Translations under genes and position numbers: made by a program
Assembly: GCA_002841375.1 (NCBI GenBank)
Contig: PGZO01000003.1
Span: forward strand, 62,001 to 126,000
DNA from: Firmicutes bacterium HGW-Firmicutes-7
Lineage (GTDB): Bacteria > Bacillota > Clostridia > Lachnospirales > Vallitaleaceae
DNA: 64,000 nt
Reading direction: 5' to 3'
Part shown: positions 5,807-19,343 of the stretch, piece after piece
Numbering within the stretch: position 1 is the stretch's first letter
Layout: every line of letters begins with the position of its first letter
Notes under the pieces: model-generated
The model's input: the letters and a program-made list of their open reading frames with translations, nothing else
Databases searched by the model: none
What the model was told of the DNA's origin: nothing

Positions 5807-6559
5807 CTAAAAAATTATTTTCGTCTTCATCGTTTCAATATATGTTAAATATTTCTCATTAGGTTTCATGTTTGTGAAAATATAATCAAAAAAACTAAAT
5901 TCGCTAAATGAAAATGGAAAGATCTTATCAAATTTTGTATCATCAACTAAAGCAATATTCGTTGAGGTGCGACTCATAATCTTGCGCTTTATGTCGCATT
6001 CAGGGAAAGTTCTGTTTGAGAACCCATTTTCTATGGACACCCCACTCGCAGTAATAAACGATTTGTCAAAATAGATGTCCTCAACAAACCTAATGGCTGC
6101 ACCACCTGTCATCGAAATTGTTTTCTTGTTGACGGACCCTGGAATCATAATTAGTTCTGCTTCAAGGTCAGAATCAATAATTTTAATTGCAAACAATAAA
6201 TTATTCGTTACGATTGTCAAATCTTTCTTTGTTCGGATGCTCTCAGCAAGATGCATATGCGAAGTACCTGAATCCACAAAGATTGTATCACCATTTTCAA
6301 TCATTGAACTTGCTAATTCCGCTATGCGTATCTTCTTGTCTGAAAGATAGGAAATTCTTGCTTTAATATTCACCAAATTGTCCGTTACATTAGCTGTTAC
6401 ATAACCATATTCTTTTATTATGCTATTACTCTTAATAAGCTGATTGATATATCGTCTAACAGTGCTTTCCGATAAATTAAAAACCTCCATCAAATCCTGA
6501 ATTTTAACTTGCTTGTTTTTGAAGATATATGCTTCAACTTCAGATATAATTTTTGCCAT
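5807..6559 (-). CDS. DeoR-family transcriptional regulator of the four-carbon sugar-acid operon
   Basis: This is a 250-residue protein with an N-terminal winged helix (about residues 1-55; LSESTVRRYINQLIK is the recognition-helix region) and a C-terminal DeoR sensor domain with the phosphosugar-binding feature DSGTSHMHLAE. I place the start at the ATG at 6557-6559, preceded by GGGAG at 8 bases. The frame could extend 20 codons to a TTG, but no ribosome binding site is present there. It is the last gene of an operon with a PdxA2-type dehydrogenase, a DUF1537 kinase and a KdgT-type permease, so it most likely controls them in response to a phosphorylated four-carbon acid. The palindrome on the operon promoter (9963-9978) is a candidate operator. 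Family certain; effector inferred. Confidence 0.85.
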   Translation of the reverse strand: MAKIISEVEAYIFKNKQVKIQDLMEVFNLSESTVRRYINQLIKSNSIIKEYGYVTANVTDNLVNIKARISYLSDKKIRIAELASSMIENGDTIFVDSGTSHMHLAESIRTKKDLTIVTNNLLFAIKIIDSDLEAELIMIPGSVNKKTISMTGGAAIRFVEDIYFDKSFITASGVSIENGFSNRTFPECDIKRKIMSRTSTNIALVDDTKFDKIFPFSFSEFSFFDYIFTNMKPNEKYLTYIETMKTKIIF

Positions 6560-6628
6560 ACGTGCATCTCCCGACTTGTTTGCGCTGATGTATATTAAGG
6601 CCATTATACCATTATTCAAATCAATTTT

Positions 6629-7606
6629 CTATGCTAATTTTTCTGCCAGCTTAATTGCATTTTTCAAACTAATATCTTGTGCAATCCCCCTACCAGCGAT
6701 ATCAAACGCCGTGCCATGATCAACAGATGTTCGCAATATTGACAAACCAGCCGATGTATTGACGCCTGTATCAAAAGCAAAAAGTTTGAAAGGTATATGA
6801 CCCTGATCATGATACATGGCAACGACAATGTCAAATTCACCTTTGATACCTCTGTAAAATACGGTATCTGGAGGAATAGGTCCTACCACATTAACTTTTT
6901 TCTTCATCTTTTCAACAGCTGGGATAATATACTTCTCTTCTTGATCACCGAATAGGCCGTTTTCACTTGCATGAGGATTAATTCCAGCAACTGCAATCCG
7001 TGGTTCTCTTCCCAAGATCATCTTCATATTATCATGGGCTAATTCAATAACCTTCTCAATACGTTCACTGCTCAGATTTTTGATTGCATCTGCTAGTGCA
7101 ACATGGGTTGATACGTGTATGATTGAAAGCTTCTCATCGTATAAGTGCATAGCAAAATCATTTGTTTGACAACTGAGCGCAAATATCTCAGTATGTCCTG
7201 GAAATTTATGCCCGGCCATATGCAGTGCTTCTTTATTCAGTGGAGCGGTAGTAACCGCTTTTCCCTTGCCCTTCTTAACATTTTCTATGGATGCAATGAC
7301 ATATTCATATGCCGCTTGCCCACACATCGAACTGATTTTTCCAGGTTCATATTGTGCCATATTAATATTGTCAAAATCGAAAACATTCAAAATCTTTTCA
7401 TTGAATTCTAAGTTGTCAAGGTTTTCAATTTTCTTCAACTCATAATCAAAGTTTCCAATTTTTTCTTTCATGTACTGGAGCACTTTGAAATCTCCAAAAA
7501 CAACCAAAGGAATTCTTTTAATTTCCTGATCTCTATAGCTACTCAGTATAATTTCTGGTCCGACACCTGCAGGATCTCCCATAGTAATAATTATTGGTAT
7601 CTTCAT
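6629..7606 (-). CDS. pdxA2: PdxA2-type D-threonate/D-erythronate 4-phosphate dehydrogenase
   Basis: This 325-residue protein has the full PdxA fold signatures: MGDPAGVGPEI at the N-terminus, the metal-binding histidines in FPGHTEIFA and MYHDQGHIPFK, and the C-terminal segment SVDHGTAFDIAGRG. Classical PdxA oxidises 4-hydroxythreonine 4-phosphate in vitamin B6 synthesis. PdxA2 paralogues beside a DUF1537 kinase instead oxidise and decarboxylate D-threonate or D-erythronate 4-phosphate to dihydroxyacetone phosphate and CO2. The neighbours here favour the second role. The ribosome binding site GGGGAGG lies inside the last codons of the upstream kinase gene (its stop is 2 bases before this start codon), so translation is probably coupled. 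B6 synthesis cannot be fully excluded. Confidence 0.88.
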   Translation of the reverse strand: MKIPIIITMGDPAGVGPEIILSSYRDQEIKRIPLVVFGDFKVLQYMKEKIGNFDYELKKIENLDNLEFNEKILNVFDFDNINMAQYEPGKISSMCGQAAYEYVIASIENVKKGKGKAVTTAPLNKEALHMAGHKFPGHTEIFALSCQTNDFAMHLYDEKLSIIHVSTHVALADAIKNLSSERIEKVIELAHDNMKMILGREPRIAVAGINPHASENGLFGDQEEKYIIPAVEKMKKKVNVVGPIPPDTVFYRGIKGEFDIVVAMYHDQGHIPFKLFAFDTGVNTSAGLSILRTSVDHGTAFDIAGRGIAQDISLKNAIKLAEKLA

Positions 7607-7608
7607 GT

Positions 7609-8865
7609 TTACCTCCCCAAATATTCCAAGATATAATTAAATGTTTCGTCATTACCAAAAGCACCGGCCTTTGTCACAATATCAATATTGTTGTAACGAT
7701 TATGAATGAATCTACCTGCCGGAATAGCCGGCAACACTTCTTCAGTGATTGTCATTCCCTCAATTTTCAGCTGATTGGCAATCTTTATTAGCGTATCTCC
7801 ACCAGTAATAAAAACACCACTTAAATATTGACTTGCCTCACTCAACAGTACACCCGTAACTTCACCTAATGTCTTTGCAATATAATCACTAATCTCATAG
7901 GTGGTCATCCCTTCTTTTTTGGCATATTCATTTGCTGCTTGTATATCTTTTTGTTCACGTGCAGTTCTAATAACAACATGTTCTCCCGCTTTGAGATACT
8001 GAATACACGCCGAGATCATCACTTCTTTCTTTTCTTCATCGAACATATCCTGAACTGTCATATCCATGATTTTCAAGTTATTTCTTTCTTGGGCATAGGT
8101 TATTTGCCTACGGGTTACATCGCTTACACTTCCAATAACCGATAAAACTGCCTTGATCTCTTTTAATTGATACGCTTGAGTTATATATTCCGCCAACCCA
8201 GCGGTTCCGACCATTAAAAATTTATTTCTTAACAATACAAGCATTTCAGAAAGGATCTTCAAATCTTCATCTGTTTCAGCATCTATGACTACAATATTAA
8301 CGTCGCTATTTCTAAACGATTCAATCGCCTTCACCAACTTGTTTGTTTCATAATGGCTTGCACCTTTGCGAACAACCTCAATGGTTTTATTACTTTGATC
8401 AGCTATTATATTAGGAATATATGCTTTTTTTACTGGTGTTTTTGGATCATTGGCAATTTCTGTTTCATCGAGTTTTTGACCATGAAGTATGACATTCCCA
8501 TCAATCGTTTGTCGTCCATTCGAAGGAAGTGCTGGAATAACAATGGCAAAGTCCATTCCCAATCCATCCATACAGCCAGATATCTCCGCACCTATATTTC
8601 CTCGGAAAGTAGAGTCCAATTTCTTGTAAACCAGTTCAGTTCCTGCATTCTTAATGAGCTTTGCAATATCAAAAACTTTTTGATATGCAATATCTTTTTC
8701 ATCAAATCGACTTTCCGTATCAAACACAACAACATCATTTTCAAAAATCTTACCTGATACACTTGTCAAATTGGTCGTAACAACTGTTGAAAGTCCCTTT
8801 TTAGAAAATTGTACCCCTGTATCATTTGCTCCTGTAAAATCATCCGCAATAATTGCTAGCTTCAT
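7609..8865 (-). CDS. dtnK: DUF1537 four-carbon acid sugar kinase
   Basis: This 418-residue protein begins with the family hallmark MKLAIIADDFTGANDTG. It carries the conserved YKKLDSTFRGN and ALPSNGRQT segments and the C-terminal nucleotide-binding part with GVFITGGDT. DUF1537 enzymes phosphorylate D-threonate, L-threonate or D-erythronate at C4 with ATP. The start was moved 7 codons downstream to the ATG at 8863-8865, where AGGAG lies 7 bases upstream and the canonical N-terminus begins. It is followed at once by the PdxA2-type dehydrogenase, the pairing known for D-threonate catabolism. A terminator-like hairpin separates it from the upstream permease gene. The exact four-carbon substrate cannot be told from sequence. 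Confidence 0.88.
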   Translation of the reverse strand: MKLAIIADDFTGANDTGVQFSKKGLSTVVTTNLTSVSGKIFENDVVVFDTESRFDEKDIAYQKVFDIAKLIKNAGTELVYKKLDSTFRGNIGAEISGCMDGLGMDFAIVIPALPSNGRQTIDGNVILHGQKLDETEIANDPKTPVKKAYIPNIIADQSNKTIEVVRKGASHYETNKLVKAIESFRNSDVNIVVIDAETDEDLKILSEMLVLLRNKFLMVGTAGLAEYITQAYQLKEIKAVLSVIGSVSDVTRRQITYAQERNNLKIMDMTVQDMFDEEKKEVMISACIQYLKAGEHVVIRTAREQKDIQAANEYAKKEGMTTYEISDYIAKTLGEVTGVLLSEASQYLSGVFITGGDTLIKIANQLKIEGMTITEEVLPAIPAGRFIHNRYNNIDIVTKAGAFGNDETFNYILEYLGR

Positions 8866-8894
8866 TCTAACACTCCTATCTTTCATATTGATTT

Positions 8895-8929
8895 TAAAAA
8901 AGAACCAAAACCAAATCGTCTTGGTTCTT
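8895..8929 (-). terminator. Intercistronic terminator between permease and kinase
   Basis: On the minus strand, 8929-8921 (AAGAACCAA) pairs with 8908-8900 (TTGGTTCTT), followed by a run of T at 8899-8895. It lies between two co-directional operon genes, so it probably acts as a partial terminator or a processing/stability hairpin. Confidence 0.7.
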
Positions 8930-8956
8930 TCATTTATGTACTTGATCTGATGTAGA

Positions 8957-9901
8957 CTATGCCTTTACTTTATCTTTTTTTGGAAACCTTTTTTTAATGA
9001 ATGATGTAAATAAAGGTGTTAACAACGCTGTTGTAATAACCGACGCCGCCACTTGTGCCGTGGCTACACTGGCTATAACTGCTAATGATGGATCTGCTAT
9101 TGCAACTGCTGCAGGTGTTCCAACAGCATTACCCGCCGTACTTGAAGCTGCCGCTCCAGCTACACCACTACCACCGGAAGCTTTATCTGCAAGGACATTG
9201 AACACACCACCAATGACTGTAGTCATAATGCCAAGCAAAACGCCTGCAAAACCAGCTTTGATAATAGTAGAGAAATTCAATCCTGCGCCTAAAGCAAATG
9301 CAAAAAACGGAATCAAAACAGGTCCACCTTTTGCTAAGAACGCACGCATATCACTGTCCAAGTTACCAATAATCATACCCAGTATAATAGGAATAATAAC
9401 ACCAAGTAACGTTAAAAATGGAATACTGGCTAAACCTGCAGTACCCAGTGCAATCATGGTTAAAAACGGACCATCATTAATGGAAAGTATGGATATTGCT
9501 CCAACATCTGTCTCATCCCCAAATTCTCCCACTAATGCAGCGTAGAGACCGCCATTAGAGTTTGTCATAGCCGCAATAATTGCTATTGACGATATTCCGA
9601 AGAATCCATTTACGGGCAGCAATTTCGCCACAATCAAACCTAAGATAACCCCAATAATAAATTTTGAAAAAGTGATTGCAGACCCTCTAACAATGGCTTT
9701 TGGTGCCGCTTTAAAGTTCAAACCTGCGCCCATACAAAATAGAAACACCCCAATGAGCGGACTTGCGCCAGTGGCAATTGCAGTTGTAAAACCCCCTATT
9801 TTCAATGCCTCTGGAAAAAACGTGTTAATAATTGCACCTAGTAATAGCGGTACAACCATCATACCTCCAGGTATCCTCTCAATACTTTGTTTGATTCTCA
9901 T
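8957..9901 (-). CDS. kdgT: KdgT-type permease (2-keto-3-deoxygluconate transporter family)
   Basis: This 314-residue, very hydrophobic protein has about ten membrane segments. It carries the KdgT-family features [14 protein letters not shown] near the N-terminus, [11 protein letters not shown], and the C-terminal [11 protein letters not shown]. KdgT itself is a proton-coupled importer of 2-keto-3-deoxygluconate. Here no KDG kinase or aldolase is nearby; the next genes are a DUF1537 kinase and a PdxA2-type dehydrogenase. I infer that it imports a four-carbon sugar acid such as threonate or erythronate. The start is the ATG at 9899-9901 with GGAG 5 bases upstream; a TTG five codons earlier lacks a binding site. 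A strong promoter lies about 50 bases upstream, with a palindrome on its -35 box. Confidence 0.87.
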
Positions 9902-9949
9902 ACTTACTCCTTTCAATACTTAGTCAGTTTTTGAACTTATTATGACTTA

Positions 9950-10046: not shown

Positions 10047-10099
10047 AAAAAAATCACTTAGCTATGATTGTTTTAGTAACAATCATCTCTAAGTGATTT
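10047..10099 (-). terminator. Strong terminator of the nhaC-mtnK-mtnA-aldolase operon
   Basis: A long two-part stem: 10089-10099 pairs with 10051-10061 and 10078-10086 with 10064-10072. On the minus strand it ends in seven T residues (10053-10047). It lies just after the aldolase gene and isolates that operon from the kdgT operon. Confidence 0.9.
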
Positions 10100-10138: not shown

Positions 10139-10810
10139 TTAGTAACAGCTTTTTTCGTCTGGTTTTTTCACTTGACCATAGCTCTTGAATTCATTCATAA
10201 CATGTTCCATTTCTTTATCACTTAAGATCACTGGTTCTCCAATACACATTGCACGGTATTGTACTTCTGCAATAAATTCCATATTGCATGCAAGCCCATA
10301 GGCACTTTTTAAACTTGAACCACATGTTAACAAGCCATGATTTCCAAGCAAAACTGCATCTCCATCTCCGCATGCTTCAATTGCAGCTTCAGCCAATTCA
10401 ATGCTTCCAAATGTTTTGTATGGTGCACATGGAACCGTTCCTGTTCCTGCATCTCCGATTACATAATGTACTGCTCTAATTGGTTGATTTAGCACTGCAA
10501 ATGTTGTACAGAATCTTGAATGTGCATGAACAACTGCTCTTGCTTCCGACTTTGTCTTATAAAATACTGTATGCAATGCCCATTCACTAGATGGTTTCTT
10601 ATCACCTTCTACGATATTTCCTTCCAAATCAATAACCACAACATCTTCTGGTTTTGTATCAAAATATCCAATTCCAGACGGACTAATTGCCACTAATTTT
10701 TCTTCTGCATTAAAAATGCTAATATTCCCACTCGTTCCTGAACTCAACCCCGCTGAACTCATTATCTTCCCATACGCTACTATTTCTTCTCTCTCTTTTT
10801 GCATTAACAT
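10139..10810 (-). CDS. Class II (fuculose-phosphate type) aldolase, probable 5-deoxyribulose/5-methylthioribulose 1-phosphate aldolase
   Basis: This 223-residue protein has the class II aldolase/adducin fold. SSGTSGNISI forms the phosphate-binding loop, ISPSG and SSEWALH carry the catalytic glutamate, and HAHS together with GNHGLL supply zinc-binding histidines. Relatives include L-fuculose 1-phosphate aldolase and the Ald2/DrdA aldolases that split 5-methylthioribulose or 5-deoxyribulose 1-phosphate into dihydroxyacetone phosphate and an aldehyde. It is the last gene of an operon with MtnA- and MtnK-type proteins, which supports the latter role. GAGAGGA lies before the ATG. MtnB-type dehydratases share this fold, but the rest of the MtnB-MtnX/W methionine salvage branch is not present here. 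Acetaldehyde or methylthioacetaldehyde would be the second product. Confidence 0.8.
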   Translation of the reverse strand: MLMQKEREEIVAYGKIMSSAGLSSGTSGNISIFNAEEKLVAISPSGIGYFDTKPEDVVVIDLEGNIVEGDKKPSSEWALHTVFYKTKSEARAVVHAHSRFCTTFAVLNQPIRAVHYVIGDAGTGTVPCAPYKTFGSIELAEAAIEACGDGDAVLLGNHGLLTCGSSLKSAYGLACNMEFIAEVQYRAMCIGEPVILSDKEMEHVMNEFKSYGQVKKPDEKSCY

Positions 10811-10844
10811 AATGTTCCTCTCTTTCTTGGCTATTAAAGCCTTT

Positions 10845-10876
10845 TGTGTATTTTTTATATTGTGTATTTTTTATAT
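10845..10876. repeat. 16-bp tandem duplication
   Basis: TGTGTATTTTTTATAT occurs twice in direct succession (10845-10860 and 10861-10876), between the aldolase start and the end of the FGGY kinase gene. The second copy touches the kinase stop codon. It looks like a small slippage duplication. Confidence 0.8.
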
Positions 10877-12318
10877 TAACTCTCTGGATTTAACATACTA
10901 CGATTCTTTTCCCATTCTGGATAGTAGGTTTTCACCAAGCTGTCTTTTTGAGGTATATATCGTTTCTCATCTTGATGATTATTTCCATAGTCAATTCTAA
11001 AGTAATCGTTACAAAGATTAACACACCCAATAATGGTTGCATGTTCAAATCCATCGTATATAACTAGATCCTTATCTGTCAAATCTGCAATCATCTGACA
11101 CATTGTAGATGACTGTAACCCACCTCCACATCCTAGCAAATAGGATTTACTATGTGGTACCATTTCACACAAACTTTTATATTGCACATAAATAGAACAT
11201 GCTATATCCGCAACCATTGCCCAAGCAAGATCCGTAACATCACACGCAGCATCCAATGGTGTGCCCATTATAAATCCACCTTTTTTAAAAGATTGTTTCT
11301 TATAAAAATTTAAAGTTGAAAAGGATGCGGTGCATAAAAATCGTTTCTTATCTTGTAATATCTGATCCAATTTCTCATGTGAAATATCTGTGAAAAACAT
11401 CTTTTTTAATCTCTGGTAGTTTAATCCAGTAACGCCCGGATTCGTTTCAACCTGAAATGTTTCTCCTCCTAAATTGCAACCAGTCCAACAACGTTCCTCT
11501 TTATCGTAAAATTTTTCATCTGTAATTGTTACAACTGGTGATGTGGTCCCAGAAACAATAGCAATATCACCTACTTCTATTCCTGTACCTTTTACTGCAA
11601 TTTGTGTATCTGCACCACCTATTATGAACACAGATTCAATGGACAATTGTAATTTTTCACACAATTCTGGTTTTACCTTTGCAAGGCATGTTCCAGCTAT
11701 TTGTATAGGTGGCAATAATTCTGTGTTAATATTATAATATTTGCATATTTTTTCTGACCACTGTCTTTTTTCAATATCAAACAACTGAGTTTCACATGCC
11801 TGCGATGGTTCTATTACAATCTTTCCTGTAAATATTTCAGCAATCCACTCACTTAGGCTTGTGATTTTAAATACTTGGCTATATATTTGTGGGTGTTTTT
11901 TCTGCAATCCTAATAACTTAGCTGCAGGGAAATCTTCTGTTACCCAACGTCCAGTTCTTTCATAGATATACTTTTTGTCAGGAATATCGCTCACCCACGC
12001 TCGTCCACGATTATCTATATTTGGCAATCCATAAAATGCTTTTCCATCTTCATTGTAGAGCACAATGCTCTCTCTCGCTCCTGAGGATATAACTGCAGTG
12101 ATTTCGAGTTTTGGATTTTCTGCAACGATATCTTTACAATAATCCAATATCTGCACTGCCCACTCTTCAGGTATAAAATATAGCGCATCCTCATAAGCTT
12201 CATCCCTATGATAATTATTTTCAAAAGCTTTTACAGCATGAATTGTTCCTGTTGATGATACAACTGCAACTCTGGTATTACCTGTTCCTAAATCTACAAC
12301 CATATAATTTTTTTCCAT
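10876..12318 (-). CDS. FGGY-family carbohydrate kinase
   Basis: This 480-residue protein has the two-domain FGGY fold. The ATP-binding DLGTGNTRVAV lies at residues 9-19, the substrate-side IDNRGRAWV near 126, GGADTQIAVKGTG near 233, and the C-terminal GCGGGLQSS near 395. FGGY kinases phosphorylate pentoses, hexoses, glycerol or the AI-2 precursor; the sugar here cannot be read from the sequence. It sits between the D-2-hydroxyacid dehydrogenase and the class II aldolase of an operon that also encodes MtnA- and MtnK-type enzymes. The known methylthioribose and deoxyribose pathways use only the MtnK-type kinase, so this second kinase suggests an added substrate or side branch. GAGGTGG precedes the ATG at 12316-12318. 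Confidence 0.85.
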   Translation of the reverse strand: MEKNYMVVDLGTGNTRVAVVSSTGTIHAVKAFENNYHRDEAYEDALYFIPEEWAVQILDYCKDIVAENPKLEITAVISSGARESIVLYNEDGKAFYGLPNIDNRGRAWVSDIPDKKYIYERTGRWVTEDFPAAKLLGLQKKHPQIYSQVFKITSLSEWIAEIFTGKIVIEPSQACETQLFDIEKRQWSEKICKYYNINTELLPPIQIAGTCLAKVKPELCEKLQLSIESVFIIGGADTQIAVKGTGIEVGDIAIVSGTTSPVVTITDEKFYDKEERCWTGCNLGGETFQVETNPGVTGLNYQRLKKMFFTDISHEKLDQILQDKKRFLCTASFSTLNFYKKQSFKKGGFIMGTPLDAACDVTDLAWAMVADIACSIYVQYKSLCEMVPHSKSYLLGCGGGLQSSTMCQMIADLTDKDLVIYDGFEHATIIGCVNLCNDYFRIDYGNNHQDEKRYIPQKDSLVKTYYPEWEKNRSMLNPES

Positions 12319-12333
12319 AGGGGCACCACCTCT

Positions 12334-13317
12334 TTACAATACCGATTTATTGTATATAATCTTTTCCATGTCTTCTTTGTTCAGCCATTTGATTAATCGT
12401 TCGGTAATAATATCTGATTGATGATCAGTTACTTCATATGTTGCGCCACAAATATGTGGCGTAAGAAGTACATTTGAAAGTTTTCCAATCGCAAGTGCTT
12501 CTTTGGTTGGTGGCTCTACCTCTAGTACATCTAGGATAGCTCCTTTAATGCATTTATTCTTGAGAACTTTCATTAATGCAGCTTCGTCTACAACTTCGCT
12601 TCTAGCTGTATTCACAAAGATTGCTGTCTCTTTCATTTTAGCAAATAGATCTGCATTAATCATTCCTTTTGTGCTATCCAGCACTGGAAGGTGAATAGAT
12701 ACAATATCACTATTTTTAAATATCTCATCTACACCACATTTTGTATATTCTTCTTTCACAAAGTCTACATAAGGGTCATAGAAATAAATTTTACAGCCAC
12801 ATGCTTCTAGAATTTTAGCTGCTGAACGTCCAACAGCTCCAAAGCCTATAAAGCCGACTTTTTTCCCTTGTAATTCATTTCCCATCCACAGGTAATACGG
12901 TGTTGCTCCTTTTACCCATTCGCCATTTTTAATCCATTCTACAGATGGTAGGATATTTCTCATAAAATTAATTACCAATCCGACAAGCATTTCTGCAACT
13001 GCTTGTGCATTTCTAGCTGGCGTGCAAAGGATTGGAATTCCTGCTTTTTCACACGCAACTACATCAATGTTAGCTGGATTGGCTCTGCAATCCCCAATTA
13101 CTTGTAGCTTATCGTAATTTGCAATAACTTTTTCAGTAATACGATCAAGTTCTGTAATTAGCACATCTGGTTGATGTTTCTTAAGTGCTTCAATCATTTC
13201 ATCTTCATAGTATCTTTCTCCTGTTATAGTCCATGGATCGTATACTACTTCTTCAAAATACATTTCTAGTTCTTTTAATCTTTCCTCAATAATTGGGGCT
13301 CTAACTAATAACTTCAT
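12334..13317 (-). CDS. D-2-hydroxyacid dehydrogenase (phosphoglycerate dehydrogenase-like)
   Basis: This 327-residue protein has the D-isomer-specific 2-hydroxyacid dehydrogenase fold. The NAD-binding GFIGFGAVGRS lies near residues 154-164. The catalytic arginine is in NTARSEVVD, the glutamate in VLEVEPP and the histidine in LTPHICGAT. It lacks the C-terminal ACT domain of biosynthetic SerA, so it is more likely a catabolic enzyme. AGGAGG lies 8 bases before the ATG, with the isomerase stop codon just upstream (12-base gap). Such enzymes are not part of the described MtnA/MtnK routes. It might handle a hydroxyacid produced from the aldehyde product or from a second sugar. Substrate unknown. 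Confidence 0.85.
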   Translation of the reverse strand: MKLLVRAPIIEERLKELEMYFEEVVYDPWTITGERYYEDEMIEALKKHQPDVLITELDRITEKVIANYDKLQVIGDCRANPANIDVVACEKAGIPILCTPARNAQAVAEMLVGLVINFMRNILPSVEWIKNGEWVKGATPYYLWMGNELQGKKVGFIGFGAVGRSAAKILEACGCKIYFYDPYVDFVKEEYTKCGVDEIFKNSDIVSIHLPVLDSTKGMINADLFAKMKETAIFVNTARSEVVDEAALMKVLKNKCIKGAILDVLEVEPPTKEALAIGKLSNVLLTPHICGATYEVTDHQSDIITERLIKWLNKEDMEKIIYNKSVL

Positions 13318-13329
13318 GTATGTTTCCTC

Positions 13330-14382
13330 CTAGTAAAACTCATCTACTTGTGTGTCGAAATAATTGTTTAGAGCATATGGTGCATACACACCCTTATCTG
13401 TAACAATTCCACTAATCAAATGTGGAGGAGTAATATCAAATGATGGATAGATGCCTTTTACTTGAGGTAATGTACTCGGAATTCCTCTGAAACACAATAC
13501 CTGGGAAGGGTCTCTTTCTTCTATAATAATATCACTGCCTGCTTTTTTATCTTCATCTGGAATTCCAGTTACAAAAAAAGGGATACCAAAATGTTTTGCG
13601 AGAATTGCTATTTGAAATGTTCCAATTTTATTGGCAATATGTCCGTCTCTAGCAATTGTATCCGCTGCTGACGTAAATAAATCTATATTCTTATGTTGCA
13701 TTGTATATGCGACCATGTTGTCTGTGATCACAGTCGTATCAAATCCCATCTCTACACAGCAACTAGATGTTAATCTAGCTCCTTGTAGATATGGTCTTGT
13801 CTCTGCGCAATATACCTTTATGTCATTCTTATTCTTACATGCCGCGCGCAACATCATACCAATAATTGTCTCTCCAAAACATTGTGTCATAATAGACCCG
13901 TTTTTAGGGAACAAATCAGCTAGATATACCCCAACCGTCTCCATAATTGAGTATCTTCTATTCAAAGAATCTATGGTTCTATTAAAAATTGCTTCCACAG
14001 GACTTTCGCCCTTTTCCAGTGCCGCCTTTCCAGCTTTCAAACATCCCTCTGTAACAATTCTCATACGGTTAGCTGTTGTTGGTCTTGCATGGGAGATATC
14101 GTAAGATGCCTGTTCTAAGTATGTAATCTGCTCACTTTTCCCTTTTCTTCTAATTTCATACGCTGCTAATGCCATTCCCATACCCGCAGCTGTGTAAGGA
14201 CCTGCACTTTGTGTTACCATATTAGTTATCGCTTGTGCTACTTCTTTGTAGGTTGTACACTCAACAAATTTGATTTCTGTCGGATATATCCTTCTGTCTA
14301 GAATTCTAACCTTTCCATCTTCATACCATGCTACATTCTCATATTGAAGTATAAACGCCAAATCTTGATCAAATCTTTCCAT
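13330..14382 (-). CDS. mtnA: MtnA-family sugar 1-phosphate isomerase
   Basis: This 350-residue protein belongs to the MtnA/eIF2B-related isomerases. GMGMALAAYEI and TTANRMR build the substrate pocket. The catalytic cysteine lies in IMTQCFGE, and the catalytic aspartate in the AADTIARDG region, followed by IANKIGT. MtnA converts 5-methylthioribose 1-phosphate, or 5-deoxyribose 1-phosphate, to the corresponding ribulose 1-phosphate. The start was set at the ATG at 14380-14382, which has AGGAG 5 bases upstream; an ATG five codons earlier overlaps that binding site. It lies between the MtnK-type kinase and the hydroxyacid dehydrogenase. The usual TICN-type cysteine context is altered to TQCFGE, so the substrate may differ from classical methylthioribose phosphate. 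Confidence 0.85.
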   Translation of the reverse strand: MERFDQDLAFILQYENVAWYEDGKVRILDRRIYPTEIKFVECTTYKEVAQAITNMVTQSAGPYTAAGMGMALAAYEIRRKGKSEQITYLEQASYDISHARPTTANRMRIVTEGCLKAGKAALEKGESPVEAIFNRTIDSLNRRYSIMETVGVYLADLFPKNGSIMTQCFGETIIGMMLRAACKNKNDIKVYCAETRPYLQGARLTSSCCVEMGFDTTVITDNMVAYTMQHKNIDLFTSAADTIARDGHIANKIGTFQIAILAKHFGIPFFVTGIPDEDKKAGSDIIIEERDPSQVLCFRGIPSTLPQVKGIYPSFDITPPHLISGIVTDKGVYAPYALNNYFDTQVDEFY

Positions 14383-14458
14383 CTTTACTCCTATCATTCT
14401 TGAGCAAAGCCACTTTATTTAGCTTTGCCCAAGACCATGTTAGCTTTTAGCTTTGCTA

Positions 14459-15667
14459 TTATTTTACTAATAATTTTTTCACAATATTTGTAATTGTTGT
14501 TCCTGTTAATATCTGATCTCTATTTTTGATGAAAGTGATTCCCGCTTTAATCAAAACACGTTCCATAGCAATTCTTTCATTCATATATGTAACACTTGTC
14601 ACTTCTACTACTTTAGAATCACCTACTACACGACGGATTATTTCTGTACCTGCATACCCAATAGAATCAGATAAAACGCGTTCTATATAATACTTTTTAA
14701 ATTCTTCAATTTTATACAAATCAAAAGTGACTTCTTCATCATATTTTCGGGAAAATTTCTTAACAAAAGAGTCCACTACTTCTACGATTGTCTTTTCAAT
14801 CCAGGATAAAAATTCTTGATTATCAGGTTCTACAAAGAATTTATTAATCCACGTAAAGAATAAATTGCCAATTACATTACCAACATCATATCCCATTGGT
14901 CCGTAAAATGCGAACTCAGGATCGATTATTTTAATACCTTCTTCGTTTGCAAAAATAGAACCAGAATGAAGATCTCCATGAATAAGTGCTTGTGCATGAT
15001 TCATAAAACCATCACGTAATATTCCCACTTCAGCTTTCAATTCTTCATCATTGTAAAGCATCTTTTTTACAAATTCTAGATTTCCTTCCGGTATTACATT
15101 TTGCTTTTTATAATCGTTATATGGTTCTGTAAATACCAAATCTTCTGAGATATCACAAAGCTCTGGATTGATAAATAGTTTTACACGTTCCTTCTTCTTT
15201 GCCCTATCAAGAATTAAATCTGTTGTTGGCAATAATGTATTTACCAAAAAGGTGGAAATATTATCGCTAAAGTGATCAAAAATTTTACCCTTCATTAATT
15301 CTGTTCTGAGATTCTTATATGCCGAAATATCTTCCATTGCCATTGCATACATTACTTCATCATAATTATAAACTGTTGGTACATAAGAATGCGCTAACTC
15401 ACGCTCGATACTTAGAATCTCTGCTTCAATTTTATTTCTATGCATATCTAATGGTCTTCCTGAAGATCTTAATAACCTATCTGCTTGTTTAATTATTAAT
15501 GATTTTCCTGTGTCTGAATTCCATATTTTGAACACATAGTTAATATTTCCATCACCTATTTCGCTAGCTTCTAAACGCTCATCCATTTCAAAGTATTTAA
15601 GAACCATTTTGGCGTATTCTTTTACATCTTCTGTATTCATCAAAAAATGTTCTGAATAGTTATTCAT
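14459..15667 (-). CDS. mtnK: MtnK-type 5-methylthioribose / 5-deoxyribose kinase
   Basis: This 402-residue kinase has the aminoglycoside-phosphotransferase/MtnK fold. The N-lobe shows GDGNINYVFKIW and LIIKQADRLLR; the catalytic loop is HGDLHSGSIF near residue 235, and the metal-binding IIDPEFAFYGPMGYDVGN follows. MtnK phosphorylates C1 of 5-methylthioribose, and relatives act on 5-deoxyribose left over from radical SAM enzymes. It overlaps the upstream transporter gene by 8 bases (ATGAATAA), which argues that transporter and kinase work on the same compound. No MTA/SAH nucleosidase gene is in the window, so the free sugar may be taken up directly or made by a nucleosidase encoded elsewhere. 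Confidence 0.88.
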   Translation of the reverse strand: MNNYSEHFLMNTEDVKEYAKMVLKYFEMDERLEASEIGDGNINYVFKIWNSDTGKSLIIKQADRLLRSSGRPLDMHRNKIEAEILSIERELAHSYVPTVYNYDEVMYAMAMEDISAYKNLRTELMKGKIFDHFSDNISTFLVNTLLPTTDLILDRAKKKERVKLFINPELCDISEDLVFTEPYNDYKKQNVIPEGNLEFVKKMLYNDEELKAEVGILRDGFMNHAQALIHGDLHSGSIFANEEGIKIIDPEFAFYGPMGYDVGNVIGNLFFTWINKFFVEPDNQEFLSWIEKTIVEVVDSFVKKFSRKYDEEVTFDLYKIEEFKKYYIERVLSDSIGYAGTEIIRRVVGDSKVVEVTSVTYMNERIAMERVLIKAGITFIKNRDQILTGTTITNIVKKLLVK

Positions 15668-17000
15668 TTGCTACCTCTACCTTTGGTGTGCTATCTTTTT
15701 TCTTGAATTTTGGCCATCCTATAAGAATGAATAAAGTACCAAATACTAGCATTAACATTGAATACCAGTTAAATGGCATAATCTTAACAGGAGAAATCTG
15801 GGCCAAACCTCCTGCAACTAACAACTGTCCTGCATAAGGAAGTAACCCATTAAATGCTGATGAGAATAAGTCTAGAATACTAGCTGTTCTTTGTGGTGCA
15901 ATGTCAAATTCTTCTGATATATCTTTCGCAATTGGACCTGCTGCAATGATAGATATTGTATTGTTTGTTGTTGCAATATCAATCAAACTTACTAATGCTG
16001 CAATGCTTAATTCTGCACCTTTTTTTGTCTTTGTCTTTGCTGAAAGCTTTTCAAGTAACCAATCAATACCACCTAAGTAATTCATTAATGCAACAAGACC
16101 ACCAACAAAGATTGCGATTACTGCCATATCTTCCATCCAAGTCATACCTTCATGAATAACGCCTAGAGATTCAACCCATGTAAAATCTCCATGCATAATT
16201 CCTATTAACATACCCGAAACAACACCAATTGTCATTGTAGGGATAACATGTAAGCCGACTACGGATAAGATAATAACTAATGCATATGGGATTAAATTTA
16301 TTAAGTTAGCAGACCCACCCGTTACTATGTTTGCTGTACTAATTGGTTGGAGGGAAAGAATAATACAATTAATAATTACTGCCGGCAAAACCATTAATGC
16401 ATTTGCTTTAAATTTATCTTTCATTGCTACATTTTGTGTGCGTGTAGCAGCAATTGTTGTATCTGAAATAAATGAAAGATTATCTCCAAACATGGCACCA
16501 CCAACTACAATACCACATACAAGCGCTACGTTAACACCTGTTTTAGAAGCAATATCAATTGCAATAGGTATCAATGCTGAAACTGTTCCCATTGATGTGC
16601 CCATTGAGAAACTAAGTATACATCCAATAAGGAATAATCCAGGTAAAATCATATTAGATGGTAGAATATTAAGACCAATGGTTGTTACCGTATCAACAGC
16701 ATGCATTCCGTTTGCTACGCCATAAAATGCACCTGCTAGAATAAAGATCAATACCATGAGAATTAATGTGTGTTCTCCACCGCCTGTACAAAATATTGTA
16801 ACTTTTTCTTCAAATGATTTCTTTTCTCCATTTGGTTTTTTTATTACAAATGCAACCCCTGTTGCAAACAGTATACCAACCATTAATGGTAGATTATCAA
16901 AGCTTCCTGTTCCTACTCCCATTACAAAATAAATTCCTAGGAATAATAATAATGGAACCAATCCTATAAAACTTCCTTTTTTGTTTGAATTATTATTCAT
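15660..17000 (-). CDS. NhaC-family Na+/H+ antiporter-like transporter
   Basis: This 446-residue membrane protein has about ten to twelve hydrophobic segments and the NhaC-family signature GGAMFGDNLSFISDTTIAAT near residues 165-185, with LDIATTNNT-like polar residues later in a membrane segment. NhaC relatives include Na+/H+ antiporters, the malate/lactate antiporter MleN and the predicted methionine transporter MetT, so sodium-driven uptake of organic solutes is well within the family. It is the first gene of the mtnK-mtnA operon and overlaps mtnK by 8 bases. I infer that it carries the operon's substrate (a 5-deoxy or 5-methylthio sugar or nucleoside). A promoter lies about 210 bases upstream, leaving a long untranslated leader with no riboswitch I recognise. 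Confidence 0.85.
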   Translation of the reverse strand: MNNNSNKKGSFIGLVPLLLFLGIYFVMGVGTGSFDNLPLMVGILFATGVAFVIKKPNGEKKSFEEKVTIFCTGGGEHTLILMVLIFILAGAFYGVANGMHAVDTVTTIGLNILPSNMILPGLFLIGCILSFSMGTSMGTVSALIPIAIDIASKTGVNVALVCGIVVGGAMFGDNLSFISDTTIAATRTQNVAMKDKFKANALMVLPAVIINCIILSLQPISTANIVTGGSANLINLIPYALVIILSVVGLHVIPTMTIGVVSGMLIGIMHGDFTWVESLGVIHEGMTWMEDMAVIAIFVGGLVALMNYLGGIDWLLEKLSAKTKTKKGAELSIAALVSLIDIATTNNTISIIAAGPIAKDISEEFDIAPQRTASILDLFSSAFNGLLPYAGQLLVAGGLAQISPVKIMPFNWYSMLMLVFGTLFILIGWPKFKKKDSTPKVEVANE

Positions 17001-17209
17001 GCCTCTTTCCTTTCACAAATGGCTACAATTCATAAATTCGTTGCCACCGTTTTCCCCTTTCATTTTCTATTGTTTTTATCCCACTGCTTCATCACTTCAT
17101 TCATTTCAAGGGCCCGAAAAATTCCCAAATTTTCTATGCTCCTAAAACATGATACTTCTATACCATTACAACCTTCATGCCTCCTTCATTCGATTTTTGC
17201 TATATCAAC

Positions 17210-17238
17210 AAATTACAACATTATTTGTCATTTGTCAA
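17210..17238 (-). promoter_or_regulatory. Promoter of the nhaC-mtnK-mtnA operon
   Basis: On the minus strand, TTGACA (17238-17233) and TAATTT (17215-17210) are 17 bases apart. The upstream edge of the -35 box is part of a TTGTAGTT box (17244-17237 read on this strand), which also occurs in the divergent promoter. Confidence 0.7.
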
Positions 17239-17263
17239 CTACAATTTGTGGATTTTTGTAGTT
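17237..17263. promoter_or_regulatory. Inverted TTGTAGTT operator pair
   Basis: AACTACAA at 17237-17244 and its exact reverse complement TTGTAGTT at 17256-17263 face each other across 11 bases. A third copy lies at 17318-17325. The copies flank or overlap both divergent promoters. This suits a DeoR-family repressor such as the product of the gene at 17381. Confidence 0.65.
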
Positions 17264-17310
17264 AATTTTATTAAATCGCTCATTTAGTTGTATATTTTTC
17301 TTAATTACTG

Positions 17311-17339
17311 TTGTCATTTGTAGTTTTATGTGATATATT
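17311..17339 (+). promoter_or_regulatory. Promoter of the deoR-adh unit with internal operator box
   Basis: TTGTCA at 17311-17316 and TATATT at 17334-17339 are 17 bases apart. A TTGTAGTT box (17318-17325) sits in the spacer, which would let the regulator repress its own gene. Confidence 0.7.
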
Positions 17340-17380
17340 TTTTTTATCACTTCAATACATTTTAGAGAGGGAACAGAGAT

Positions 17381-18154
17381 ATGTTAAAAATTGACAGACA
17401 AAAAGCTATAGAGGAGGAACTACGCGCTCATGGCAGTGTTCTCATATCCGATATGAGTCAAAAGCTAGATTGTAGCGAAGAAACGATTCGCCGAGATTTA
17501 AAAGAAATGGAAAAAGAAAAGAAATTAGCTCGTATCCATGGAGGCGCATTTTTACCTGAGGAGCACGACAAAAGTGTACCTATTCAATTAAGAGAAACTT
17601 TTTTCTCTACTGAAAAAGAACGCATGGCTTCTCATGTTATGAAAAATTACATTCAAGAAGAAGATATTATTATGTTAGATTGCAGCACCACATGTTTAAC
17701 ACTTGCCAAGCAATTGCTTCTATCAAATATGAAGTTAACGATTATTACTAATTCTCTTTGTATCTGCAATCTTTTTAGCACTGCTTCAACGAATAAGGTA
17801 AAACTCATATGTCTAGGTGGTACCCTACGCCAGAGATCTAGTTCTTATATTGGGTATCAAACCACTCAAGCACTCTCCACATATCTTGCTGATAAGTGTT
17901 TTATTAGCTGTCCTGCAATTGATATGAAACATGGACTAATTGATAATAACATGAATGAGGGACAGATAAGAAAAGGCTATATTCATCAAGCACGTCAACG
18001 TTTTTTAGTTGCAGATCATACCAAGTTTTCCGAAAAATCGGATGTTATAATTACTGGATTAAAAGACTTAGATGTCGTTATTACTAATAAACCACTCTCC
18101 AAGAGTTGGGAGCAAACATTGCAAGATGCAAACCTCTTCATCGATTATTGCTAA
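17381..18154 (+). CDS. DeoR-family transcriptional regulator
   Basis: This 257-residue regulator has an N-terminal winged helix with the DeoR hallmark CSEETIRRDLKEME (about residues 31-44) followed by RIHGGA, and a C-terminal sugar-phosphate-sensing domain (LDCSTTCLTLA, LGGTLR, and VADHTKF near residue 208). GAGAGGGAACAG precedes the ATG. It is co-transcribed with the iron alcohol dehydrogenase downstream and diverges from the nhaC-mtnK-mtnA operon, with TTGTAGTT boxes on both promoters. It is therefore the probable local repressor of the whole unit, responding to a phosphorylated sugar intermediate of the pathway. That regulation is inferred from position and motif, not shown. Confidence 0.9.
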   Translation: MLKIDRQKAIEEELRAHGSVLISDMSQKLDCSEETIRRDLKEMEKEKKLARIHGGAFLPEEHDKSVPIQLRETFFSTEKERMASHVMKNYIQEEDIIMLDCSTTCLTLAKQLLLSNMKLTIITNSLCICNLFSTASTNKVKLICLGGTLRQRSSSYIGYQTTQALSTYLADKCFISCPAIDMKHGLIDNNMNEGQIRKGYIHQARQRFLVADHTKFSEKSDVIITGLKDLDVVITNKPLSKSWEQTLQDANLFIDYC

Positions 18155-18176
18155 CTTATTATATTAGGAGGATTTT

Positions 18177-19343
18177 ATGCAAAACTTTCATTATCATAAC
18201 CCAGCTAGAATTATTTTTGGTGACAATTCCGAAAAAGAACTAAATACACTATTACAAGAATATAAAGTGTCATCGCTTCTATTAGTTTACAGCGGTGATT
18301 TCATTAAAGACTTAGGCATCTGGACTACTATTACAGATGCCTGCAATGAATTGAATATCCATTTTTACGAAAATGCTAACGTAGTTCCTAATCCCAAGGT
18401 TGAATTGGTTCGTGAATTAGTAACGCTTGGAAAAGAGCACGCTGTTGATTTCATACTTGCTGTTGGCGGTGGTAGCTCTATTGATACAGCTAAAGCCATT
18501 TCTCTTGGCATTCCCTATGAAGGCGATGTATGGGATTTCTTTGACGGTTCTGCATCTGCTAGAAGTTCAATACCAATAGGTGTAATTACAACGTTGCCTT
18601 CAAGTGGTTCTGAAACTTCAAACTGCTCTATTATCTCTAATGGCCTATTAAAACTAGGCTTTGAAGATGATATGATTATCCCACAATTTTCTATAATGAA
18701 CCCACGTTTCACCATGGGATTACCTGCTTATCAAACATCTTGTGGATGCGCAGATATTCTTTCTCACTTATTAGAGAGATATTTTACTGATACAACCTAT
18801 GTAGATACAACAGATTTCTTAATCGAAGGTGCTATAAAAGCGTTAATGTTGAATGCTGAACGTTTGATGAAAGATTCTAAAGACTACAATGCTCGTGCAG
18901 AAGTACAATGGTTAGCTTCCATAGCACATAACAATTTATTAGATACTGGTCGTCTTGCAGATTGGGGTTCTCATAGAATTGAACATGAATTAAGTTCACA
19001 GTACGGTATCACACACGGTGAAGGTATGGCTGTAATATTGGTTGCTTGGACAAAGTACATGGCTCAAAAAAAACCCACCAAGCTTGCTCAACTTGCCAAC
19101 CGTATATTCAATGTAGATTATCATGATTATACTGAAACTGAAATGGCATTTAAATTATCGGATCATTTAAAACGCTTCTTTATTTCTTTGAATTTAAAAA
19201 CTACGCTAAGCGAACTCAATATTGATGATTCTGCTTTCGAAGAAATGGCTATGAGAGCAACTGATCATGATACATCAACAGTTGGGCATTATATCCCATT
19301 ACACAAAAAAGAATTTATCGAAATTCTTAAATTAGCATTATAA
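18177..19343 (+). CDS. Iron-containing alcohol dehydrogenase
   Basis: This 388-residue group III alcohol dehydrogenase is of the butanol-dehydrogenase/YqhD type. NAD(P) is bound through GGGSSIDTAKAI near residue 100, and THGEGMAV near 280 carries a metal-binding histidine. The other metal ligands lie in CADILSHLLERYF and SHRIEHEL. Such enzymes reduce aldehydes to alcohols. GGAGG stands before the ATG. The gene follows the DeoR regulator by 22 bases. If the aldolase of the divergent operon releases acetaldehyde (from deoxyribulose phosphate) or methylthioacetaldehyde, this enzyme would detoxify it to ethanol or methylthioethanol. In the described anaerobic ethylene shunt an alcohol dehydrogenase plays this role. 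The exact aldehyde is not known. Confidence 0.88.
   Translation: MQNFHYHNPARIIFGDNSEKELNTLLQEYKVSSLLLVYSGDFIKDLGIWTTITDACNELNIHFYENANVVPNPKVELVRELVTLGKEHAVDFILAVGGGSSIDTAKAISLGIPYEGDVWDFFDGSASARSSIPIGVITTLPSSGSETSNCSIISNGLLKLGFEDDMIIPQFSIMNPRFTMGLPAYQTSCGCADILSHLLERYFTDTTYVDTTDFLIEGAIKALMLNAERLMKDSKDYNARAEVQWLASIAHNNLLDTGRLADWGSHRIEHELSSQYGITHGEGMAVILVAWTKYMAQKKPTKLAQLANRIFNVDYHDYTETEMAFKLSDHLKRFFISLNLKTTLSELNIDDSAFEEMAMRATDHDTSTVGHYIPLHKKEFIEILKLAL

Follow-up and report, generated by a model that had tools for sequence, protein, structure and literature searches.

The 64,000-nucleotide stretch analysed here (the window) comprises bases 62001-126000 of contig 30 in the 4.08 Mb genome of Firmicutes bacterium HGW-Firmicutes-7. 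It contains an operon in which the kinase, isomerase and aldolase families of the dihydroxyacetone phosphate (DHAP) shunt are accompanied by two additional enzymes, a D-2-hydroxyacid dehydrogenase family oxidoreductase (HADH) and an FGGY carbohydrate kinase. Six genes run leftward in the order NhaC-family transporter, MtnK, MtnA-family isomerase, HADH, FGGY kinase and class II aldolase, with a spacing that ranges from an 8-base overlap to gaps of at most 65 bases. A DeoR regulator and an iron-containing alcohol dehydrogenase (Fe-ADH) run rightward and share the intergenic region with the leftward operon. All eight are open reading frames whose families were assigned with NCBIfam and Pfam, and their content and divergent layout are those that a previous sequence-only reading of the window had described. 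The features of the locus are the following:

10051-10099, minus strand: 22-nt hairpin followed by a T-run, 3' of the aldolase gene, likely transcription terminator
10139-10810, minus strand: class II aldolase of the DrdA/FucA type (PRK06833, 276 bits, cut-off 264)
10876-12318, minus strand: FGGY carbohydrate kinase (FGGY_N, 107.5 bits; FGGY_C, 26.5 bits, cut-off 27)
12334-13317, minus strand: HADH (2-Hacid_dh_C, 180 bits)
13330-14397, minus strand: isomerase from a divergent subfamily of the MtnA (IF-2B) family (PRK05720, 356 bits, cut-off 271)
14459-15667, minus strand: S-methyl-5-thioribose / 5-deoxyribose kinase MtnK (TIGR01767, 382.2 bits, cut-off 275)
15660-17000, minus strand: NhaC-family transporter that opens the operon, presumed importer (Pfam Na_H_antiporter, 72.8 bits)
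17001-17380, no strand: divergent promoter region, where TTGTCATTTGT and TTTGTAGTT are repeated and may be operators
17381-18154, plus strand: DeoR-family transcriptional regulator (DeoRC, 136.7 bits; HTH_DeoR, 58.1 bits)
18177-19343, plus strand: Fe-ADH, presumed reductase of the aldehyde product (Fe-ADH, 129 bits)

Judged by its sequences, the core of this operon represents a variant form of the known DHAP shunt with its kinase, isomerase and aldolase, since MtnK lies above the cut-off of TIGR01767, the model used to assess shunt membership, the isomerase is a divergent member of the MtnA family and the aldolase is nearest to DrdA. MtnK could be aligned with PDB 2olc across the HGDLHSGS and DPE motifs. 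The best PDB match of the aldolase was the DrdA of Bacillus thuringiensis (6btd, 234 bits), and two L-fuculose phosphate aldolases, 4c24 (191 bits) and 1fua (149 bits; the FucA of Escherichia coli), scored below it. These family scores support the assignment of the three genes to the DHAP shunt made in the sequence-only reading. The aldolase holds the PSSEW, HAHS and NHG motifs and would be expected to split a ketose 1-phosphate into DHAP and an aldehyde. The isomerase scored 218.6 bits with TIGR00512, the MtnA equivalog model, under its cut-off of 279. Its sequence has QSAGPYT in the position of the RGAPAIG motif of canonical MtnA, and residues Q63-P67 do not vary among 18 aligned sequences. 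C173 and D246, which align with the known catalytic Cys and Asp, are likewise invariant in the 18 aligned sequences, that of the window included; the isomerase was also aligned to PDB 2yrf.

The closest described system is the drdK-drdI-drdA operon of B. thuringiensis. PMC6079011 reports that DrdK, DrdI and DrdA convert 5-deoxyribose into DHAP and acetaldehyde, that DrdK also accepts 5-methylthioribose and is inactive on ribose, that radical S-adenosylmethionine (SAM) enzymes almost universally leave 5-deoxyribose as a by-product, which inhibits growth unless removed, and that this salvage route was first defined in 2018. The window shares with this operon an MtnK-family kinase, an MtnA-family isomerase and a class II aldolase, and adds HADH, the FGGY kinase, NhaC, DeoR and Fe-ADH. 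The core steps are also those of the DHAP shunts of Rhodospirillum rubrum and of extraintestinal pathogenic E. coli (ExPEC). The ExPEC mtnK-mtnA-ald2 operon, as described in passages of PMC12632272, includes a putative permease, is regulated by MtnR (YjhU) and CRP, and has neither HADH nor an FGGY kinase. The terms 'FGGY' and '2-hydroxyacid dehydrogenase' had no occurrences in six papers, PMC6079011, PMC10986504, PMC12632272 and PMC6302742 among them, and a description of the expanded operon or of the HADH-FGGY-aldolase combination was not found in the open-access PMC literature, supplementary files being outside the scope.

The same genome carries a second, canonical MtnK-MtnA-aldolase operon on contig 22 (L119, 8000-27000). 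Its MtnK reached 459 bits with TIGR01767 and its MtnA 423 bits with TIGR00512, and they are accompanied by a class II aldolase homologue, an importer formed by a sugar ATP-binding cassette (ABC) ATPase and permease, a DeoR-type regulator and an Fe-ADH. Two aldo/keto-reductase-like genes were also recognized by eye in its vicinity. The window isomerase is 28% identical to this canonical MtnA. In 13 of 20 other genomes searched, the divergent isomerase was the sole IF-2B homologue (E <= 0.001), which indicates that it is not generally an extra copy.

Relatives of the window isomerase were obtained by scanning genome contigs with an isomerase alignment, and the best 80 of 262 loci were combined with four loci from a plasmid collection, giving 84. 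The plasmid search had returned 13 records, from which H1, H4, H5 and the H2 region were used; a second Enterococcus raffinosus record (H3) was left out, as were eight records whose identity was about 40% or lower. Neighbouring genes were scored within 8 kb of the isomerase by BLAST with author-set thresholds, the one for DeoR being low (60 bits). The 20 canonical MtnA loci that served as controls were high-ranking matches and no random draw, and three of them were short (9 to 14 kb).

HADH and the FGGY kinase were both present in 11 of the 84 loci and both absent from the other 73, and one was never found alone (0/84). The carriers were a Lachnospiraceae bacterium, two Treponema socranskii, Proteiniclasticum, three Oscillospiraceae, Anaerosphaera, two Lactobacillus and a megaplasmid of E. 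raffinosus. MtnK, the aldolase and a DeoR-type match accompanied the pair in all 11 loci, and NhaC and Fe-ADH in 10 each; NhaC was found in only 7 of the 26 other loci with MtnK. HADH, FGGY and NhaC were absent from all 20 control loci at the same thresholds. By Fisher tests, both of which ignore relatedness, the association of HADH with FGGY had a P value of 5e-14 and that of the pair with NhaC one of 7e-4. The two extra enzymes announced by the sequence-only reading are real, and beside the divergent isomerase they were found only as a pair.

All eight genes occur in the order and orientation of the window in four other loci (L033, L036, L037 and L042), and they are rearranged in others, across several genera, so that the arrangement cannot be attributed to chance. 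In L039 and L064, the Fe-ADH lies downstream. E. raffinosus has all eight genes in another order, NhaC-HADH-FGGY-aldolase-FeADH-MtnK-MtnA with a divergent DeoR, which speaks for selection on their linkage. In each of the 11 relatives, the pair either separated the isomerase from the aldolase or immediately preceded the latter.

Treponema sp. L035 and T. socranskii L036 share 95% DNA identity across MtnK-MtnA and 92% in the part that starts with the aldolase, but L035 lacks both the 2.5 kb stretch with HADH and FGGY and the 3.7 kb FeADH-DeoR-NhaC stretch of L036, an unrelated 436-aa gene preceding its MtnK. This difference indicates that the HADH-FGGY pair is an optional module. The pair is thus optional and, within this sample, indivisible. 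Mapped on the isomerase tree, its distribution required 10 gains or losses, the mean of shuffled distributions being 11.5 and 50 of 500 shuffles being as low. The kinases of 11 clusters (the window and 10 others) formed a single clade in the FGGY tree with support of 100/100. Among 398 genomes across the phylum, a close relative of the kinase (E <= 1e-45) was found only in the genome of the window itself, and two more matches had 30-31% identity. The expanded form is recurrent yet rare.

The two weak matches, L121 and L122, are HADH-FGGY-aldolase clusters with no adjoining MtnK or MtnA. L121 has in addition an Fe-ADH, a regulator related to DeoR and LsrR models, and an ABC importer whose binding protein is ribose/allose-like. 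A third cluster of the same family without adjoining MtnK or MtnA was found in L173; both L122, a 4.7 kb contig, and L173 are short stretches. In plasmids, 55 records matched the HADH of L121, and six regions were opened. Four of them (Klebsiella, Streptomyces, Sagittula and Cereibacter) contained an HADH-FGGY-class II aldolase triad, and the full triad was not present in those of Mesorhizobium and Halapricum. These plasmid modules have the same three families side by side as the window, but their kinases lie on the xylulokinase side of the tree and, unlike in the window, no MtnK or MtnA is annotated beside them. ABC or MFS transporters occur in the regions of L127 (Klebsiella), L129 (Sagittula), L131 (Cereibacter) and L132 (Streptomyces), and a molybdopterin oxidoreductase is annotated within three of the four; a function for these modules was not found in the open-access literature. 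The pair can thus occur with a class II aldolase and no MtnK or MtnA beside it, whereas in the window it would share this enzyme with the MtnK-isomerase branch.

Both members of the pair were compared with characterized families. R239, E268 and H288 of HADH, which we take to be its catalytic residues, are invariant among its relatives. The protein has an unusual CRxxP loop with an invariant R78, and this loop, which reads RANP in the window, AGVG in 1wwk and AVG in 2dbq, points to an altered substrate site. A fold search placed HADH nearest to glyoxylate/hydroxypyruvate reductases and phosphoglycerate dehydrogenases (PGDH), and the AlphaFold2 model, of moderate quality (mean predicted local distance difference test, pLDDT, 83; predicted template modelling score 0.63), identified the family fold only. 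The scores with the equivalog models of PGDH (200 against 454 bits) and glyoxylate reductase (184 against 455 bits) fell below the cut-offs.

The AlphaFold2 model of the FGGY kinase (mean pLDDT 90.9) showed a complete FGGY fold over its whole length. Structure comparison recovered this fold only and did not separate xylulose, glycerol and autoinducer-2 (AI-2) kinases, glycerol kinases being the top matches with VIA-align. The best model was PRK10939, the LsrK equivalog, yet with 144.1 bits against a cut-off of 528. Trees were built with LsrK, XylB, FucK, RhaB and GlpK as references, leaving out L037, a near copy of L036. With 27 rows, the window kinase grouped with LsrK and L121/L122 with support of 99/95. 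With 19 rows, the support of the LsrK grouping was 93/96 and the alternative FucK grouping had a p-AU of 0.041; without L121/L122, support was 88/84 and the FucK grouping was not rejected (p-AU 0.137). At residue 82, the window kinase and the aligned LsrK proteins have in common an R-(E/Q)-(G/A/S/T) motif that XylB, FucK and RhaB do not share. The kinase therefore grouped with LsrK, although not robustly.

The sets of genes around the divergent isomerase were also compared. Within 8 kb, MtnK was found in 37 of the 84 loci, a purine nucleoside phosphorylase (PNP) and/or a TRZ/ATZ deaminase without MtnK in 29, and neither in 18. Rows without any of these genes (18 of 85 isomerase rows) were kept in the counts; in 10 of them, the contig reached less than 4 kb on one side. 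Family models identified the L062 and L107 phosphorylases as PNP, above cut-off, and the deaminases of L068 and L107 resembled N-ethylammeline chlorohydrolase-type, 5'-deoxyadenosine and 5'-methylthioadenosine/S-adenosylhomocysteine deaminases, with scores below the cut-offs shown. Either set, MtnK or PNP/deaminase, would supply the isomerase with a (5-modified) ribose 1-phosphate. L062, L068, L107 and 26 further loci thus look like a phosphorolytic, nucleoside version of the shunt around the divergent isomerase; L107 has an ABC ATPase upstream as well.

Taken together, the explanation that we favour, with moderate confidence, is an expanded, transporter-linked DHAP shunt with two entry branches and one common aldolase. 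In the first branch, NhaC would take up 5-deoxyribose or a 5-substituted ribose, MtnK would phosphorylate its C1, the MtnA-type isomerase would give the ketose 1-phosphate, the DrdA-like aldolase would cleave it into DHAP and an aldehyde, and Fe-ADH would reduce the latter. In the second, the optional HADH-FGGY pair would convert another C5 compound into a ketose phosphate cleavable by the same aldolase. In this scheme we infer all the substrates, the direction and order in which HADH and the FGGY kinase act and the specificity of transport. Because the pair is optional and is also found with an aldolase that has no adjoining MtnK and MtnA, a second branch leading to the aldolase is a better fit than a single, longer route. 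From family content and neighbourhoods, the most likely role of the pair is therefore a second entry route converging on the aldolase, and the operon is a real, recurrent, rare and optional extension of the known salvage pathway. The sequence-only reading had presented the locus as one complete unit from uptake to aldehyde reduction and as a possible undescribed variant. Co-occurrence of the transporter and Fe-ADH and recurrence of the set across genera favour the unit, and no paper describing the two extra enzymes was found in the open-access literature; the optional and separable pair speaks against a single lengthened route. A second branch would mean that the aldolase also receives a further metabolite. 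Several of the bacteria that carry the pair live in the gut or the mouth, and naming its substrate would reveal a compound available in these communities.

Several observations weigh against this explanation. The HADH-FGGY pair has no known activity, and enzymes of the HADH family usually take 2-oxo or 2-hydroxy acids, so that a plain ketose suits them poorly. With only 32-34% identity to the window aldolase, those of L121 and L122 need not share its specificity. HADH and FGGY were found beside the isomerase in none of eight other genomes in which it has at least 54% identity (299-genome draw; two stretches shorter than 4 kb). The gene context of the isomerase is also compatible with a ribose 1-phosphate route, and the TRZ/ATZ deaminase adjoins canonical MtnA in 14 of the 20 controls, so that it is not diagnostic of the divergent subfamily.

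A different placement of the pair would be downstream of the aldolase: HADH would handle an oxo- or hydroxy-product of this enzyme, for example reducing glyoxylate or a related oxo acid to the hydroxy acid, and the FGGY kinase would phosphorylate a related compound, in one pathway for a 5-carboxylated pentose or one that is acidic in another way. The nearest structures of HADH (glyoxylate/hydroxypyruvate reductases and PGDH), the conservation of R239, E268 and H288, and the preferential presence of NhaC beside the pair (10/11 against 7/26) are in its favour, and NhaC-family transporters often carry organic anions. However, the stand-alone cluster L121 has a sugar-type ABC importer, NhaC is also found without the pair, and the RANP loop departs from those of 1wwk and 2dbq; we consider this placement rather unlikely. 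It is also conceivable, although unlikely, that the whole operon serves an ordinary pentose, converting ribose 1-phosphate to ribulose 1-phosphate and this to DHAP and glycolaldehyde, instead of 5-deoxy sugars. PNP-linked relatives would free ribose 1-phosphate from inosine, the isomerase lacks the canonical RGAPAIG motif, and the genome already has a canonical shunt. Conversely, MtnK exceeds the methylthioribose kinase cut-off, the aldolase is nearest to DrdA, the position of the divergent isomerase as sole IF-2B homologue in 13/20 genomes suits a general shunt enzyme, and the characterized DrdK is inactive on ribose (PMC6079011).

Very improbably, HADH and FGGY might belong to an unrelated pathway and be mere passengers here, having only regulation and importer in common with the other genes. 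This would account for a pair that is optional and scattered on the isomerase tree, where its 10 changes were equalled in 50 of 500 shuffles, but not for its position, in 11/11 relatives, either amid isomerase and aldolase or just before the aldolase, nor for its presence beside a class II aldolase that lacks MtnK and MtnA as neighbours. The grouping of the kinase with LsrK, not being robust, permits a further reading, the disposal of AI-2-like sugars. One operon might then clear all three ribosyl leftovers of SAM. MtnK and the isomerase would deal with 5-methylthioribose and 5-deoxyribose, and the LsrK-like kinase and HADH with the AI-2 precursor 4,5-dihydroxy-2,3-pentanedione (DPD) or a 1-deoxy-dicarbonyl sugar close to it. 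In this reductive breakdown of AI-2, HADH would turn the DPD-type substrate into a 5-deoxypentulose phosphate, to be cleaved by the common aldolase, and LsrF and LsrG would be dispensed with. The window kinase groups with LsrK in the 27-row tree, less firmly without L121/L122, and has the motif at residue 82, but it scores far below the LsrK cut-off and, unlike the lsr system, the operon has no LsrB, LsrF or LsrG: in a search of the eight genes none of them was found, and the gaps, 65 bases at the most, are too short to accommodate them inside the operon. An LsrG-like isomerase is thus missing from the operon, and the binding protein of L121 is ribose/allose-like, not LsrB-like. LuxS is present in the genome of the window and in 2 of 20 others searched, among them only 1 of the 7 carrying the pair, so that elsewhere the substrate would have to come from neighbours. 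We hold this reading to be quite improbable; if true, it would represent a new way to remove a quorum-sensing signal.

Concerning the control regions, the TTGTCATTTGT and TTTGTAGTT repeats of the promoter region were not found in 10 other intergenic regions compared, and an Rfam scan of the window gave no riboswitch or other family at gathering score. The hairpin at 10051-10099 was not among the matches of a G+C-based terminator scan.

Some additional genes were observed beside relatives of the isomerase. A methionine gamma-lyase-like enzyme dependent on pyridoxal phosphate (L111:1917-3125; 546 bits, below the cut-off of 666) is encoded between isomerase and aldolase, which hints that sulfur may be salvaged from methylthioribose. 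Glycerate kinases were found beside the isomerase cluster in Enterococcus (L059:7599-8720), directly before MtnK, and in Oscillibacter (L050:8596-10080), the latter below the cut-off. The Enterococcus gene was dropped as a lead, the gene directly preceding MtnK in L066, L067 and L072 being a 117-aa gene of phosphotransferase system type.

Finally, a D-threonate-type catabolic unit lies directly downstream of the aldolase (5807-9916). Its inclusion in the operon was rejected: its genes served as BLAST queries as well, and in the best 80 of 262 relatives they matched no gene up to eight positions from the isomerase. The terminator-like hairpin between these genes and the aldolase makes them look like a separate unit, and they probably form an operon of their own. 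It includes a PdxA-family dehydrogenase above the TIGR00557 cut-off, a DeoR-type regulator recognized by eye, and a D-threonate-kinase-like protein and a KdgT-type permease, both below their equivalog cut-offs.

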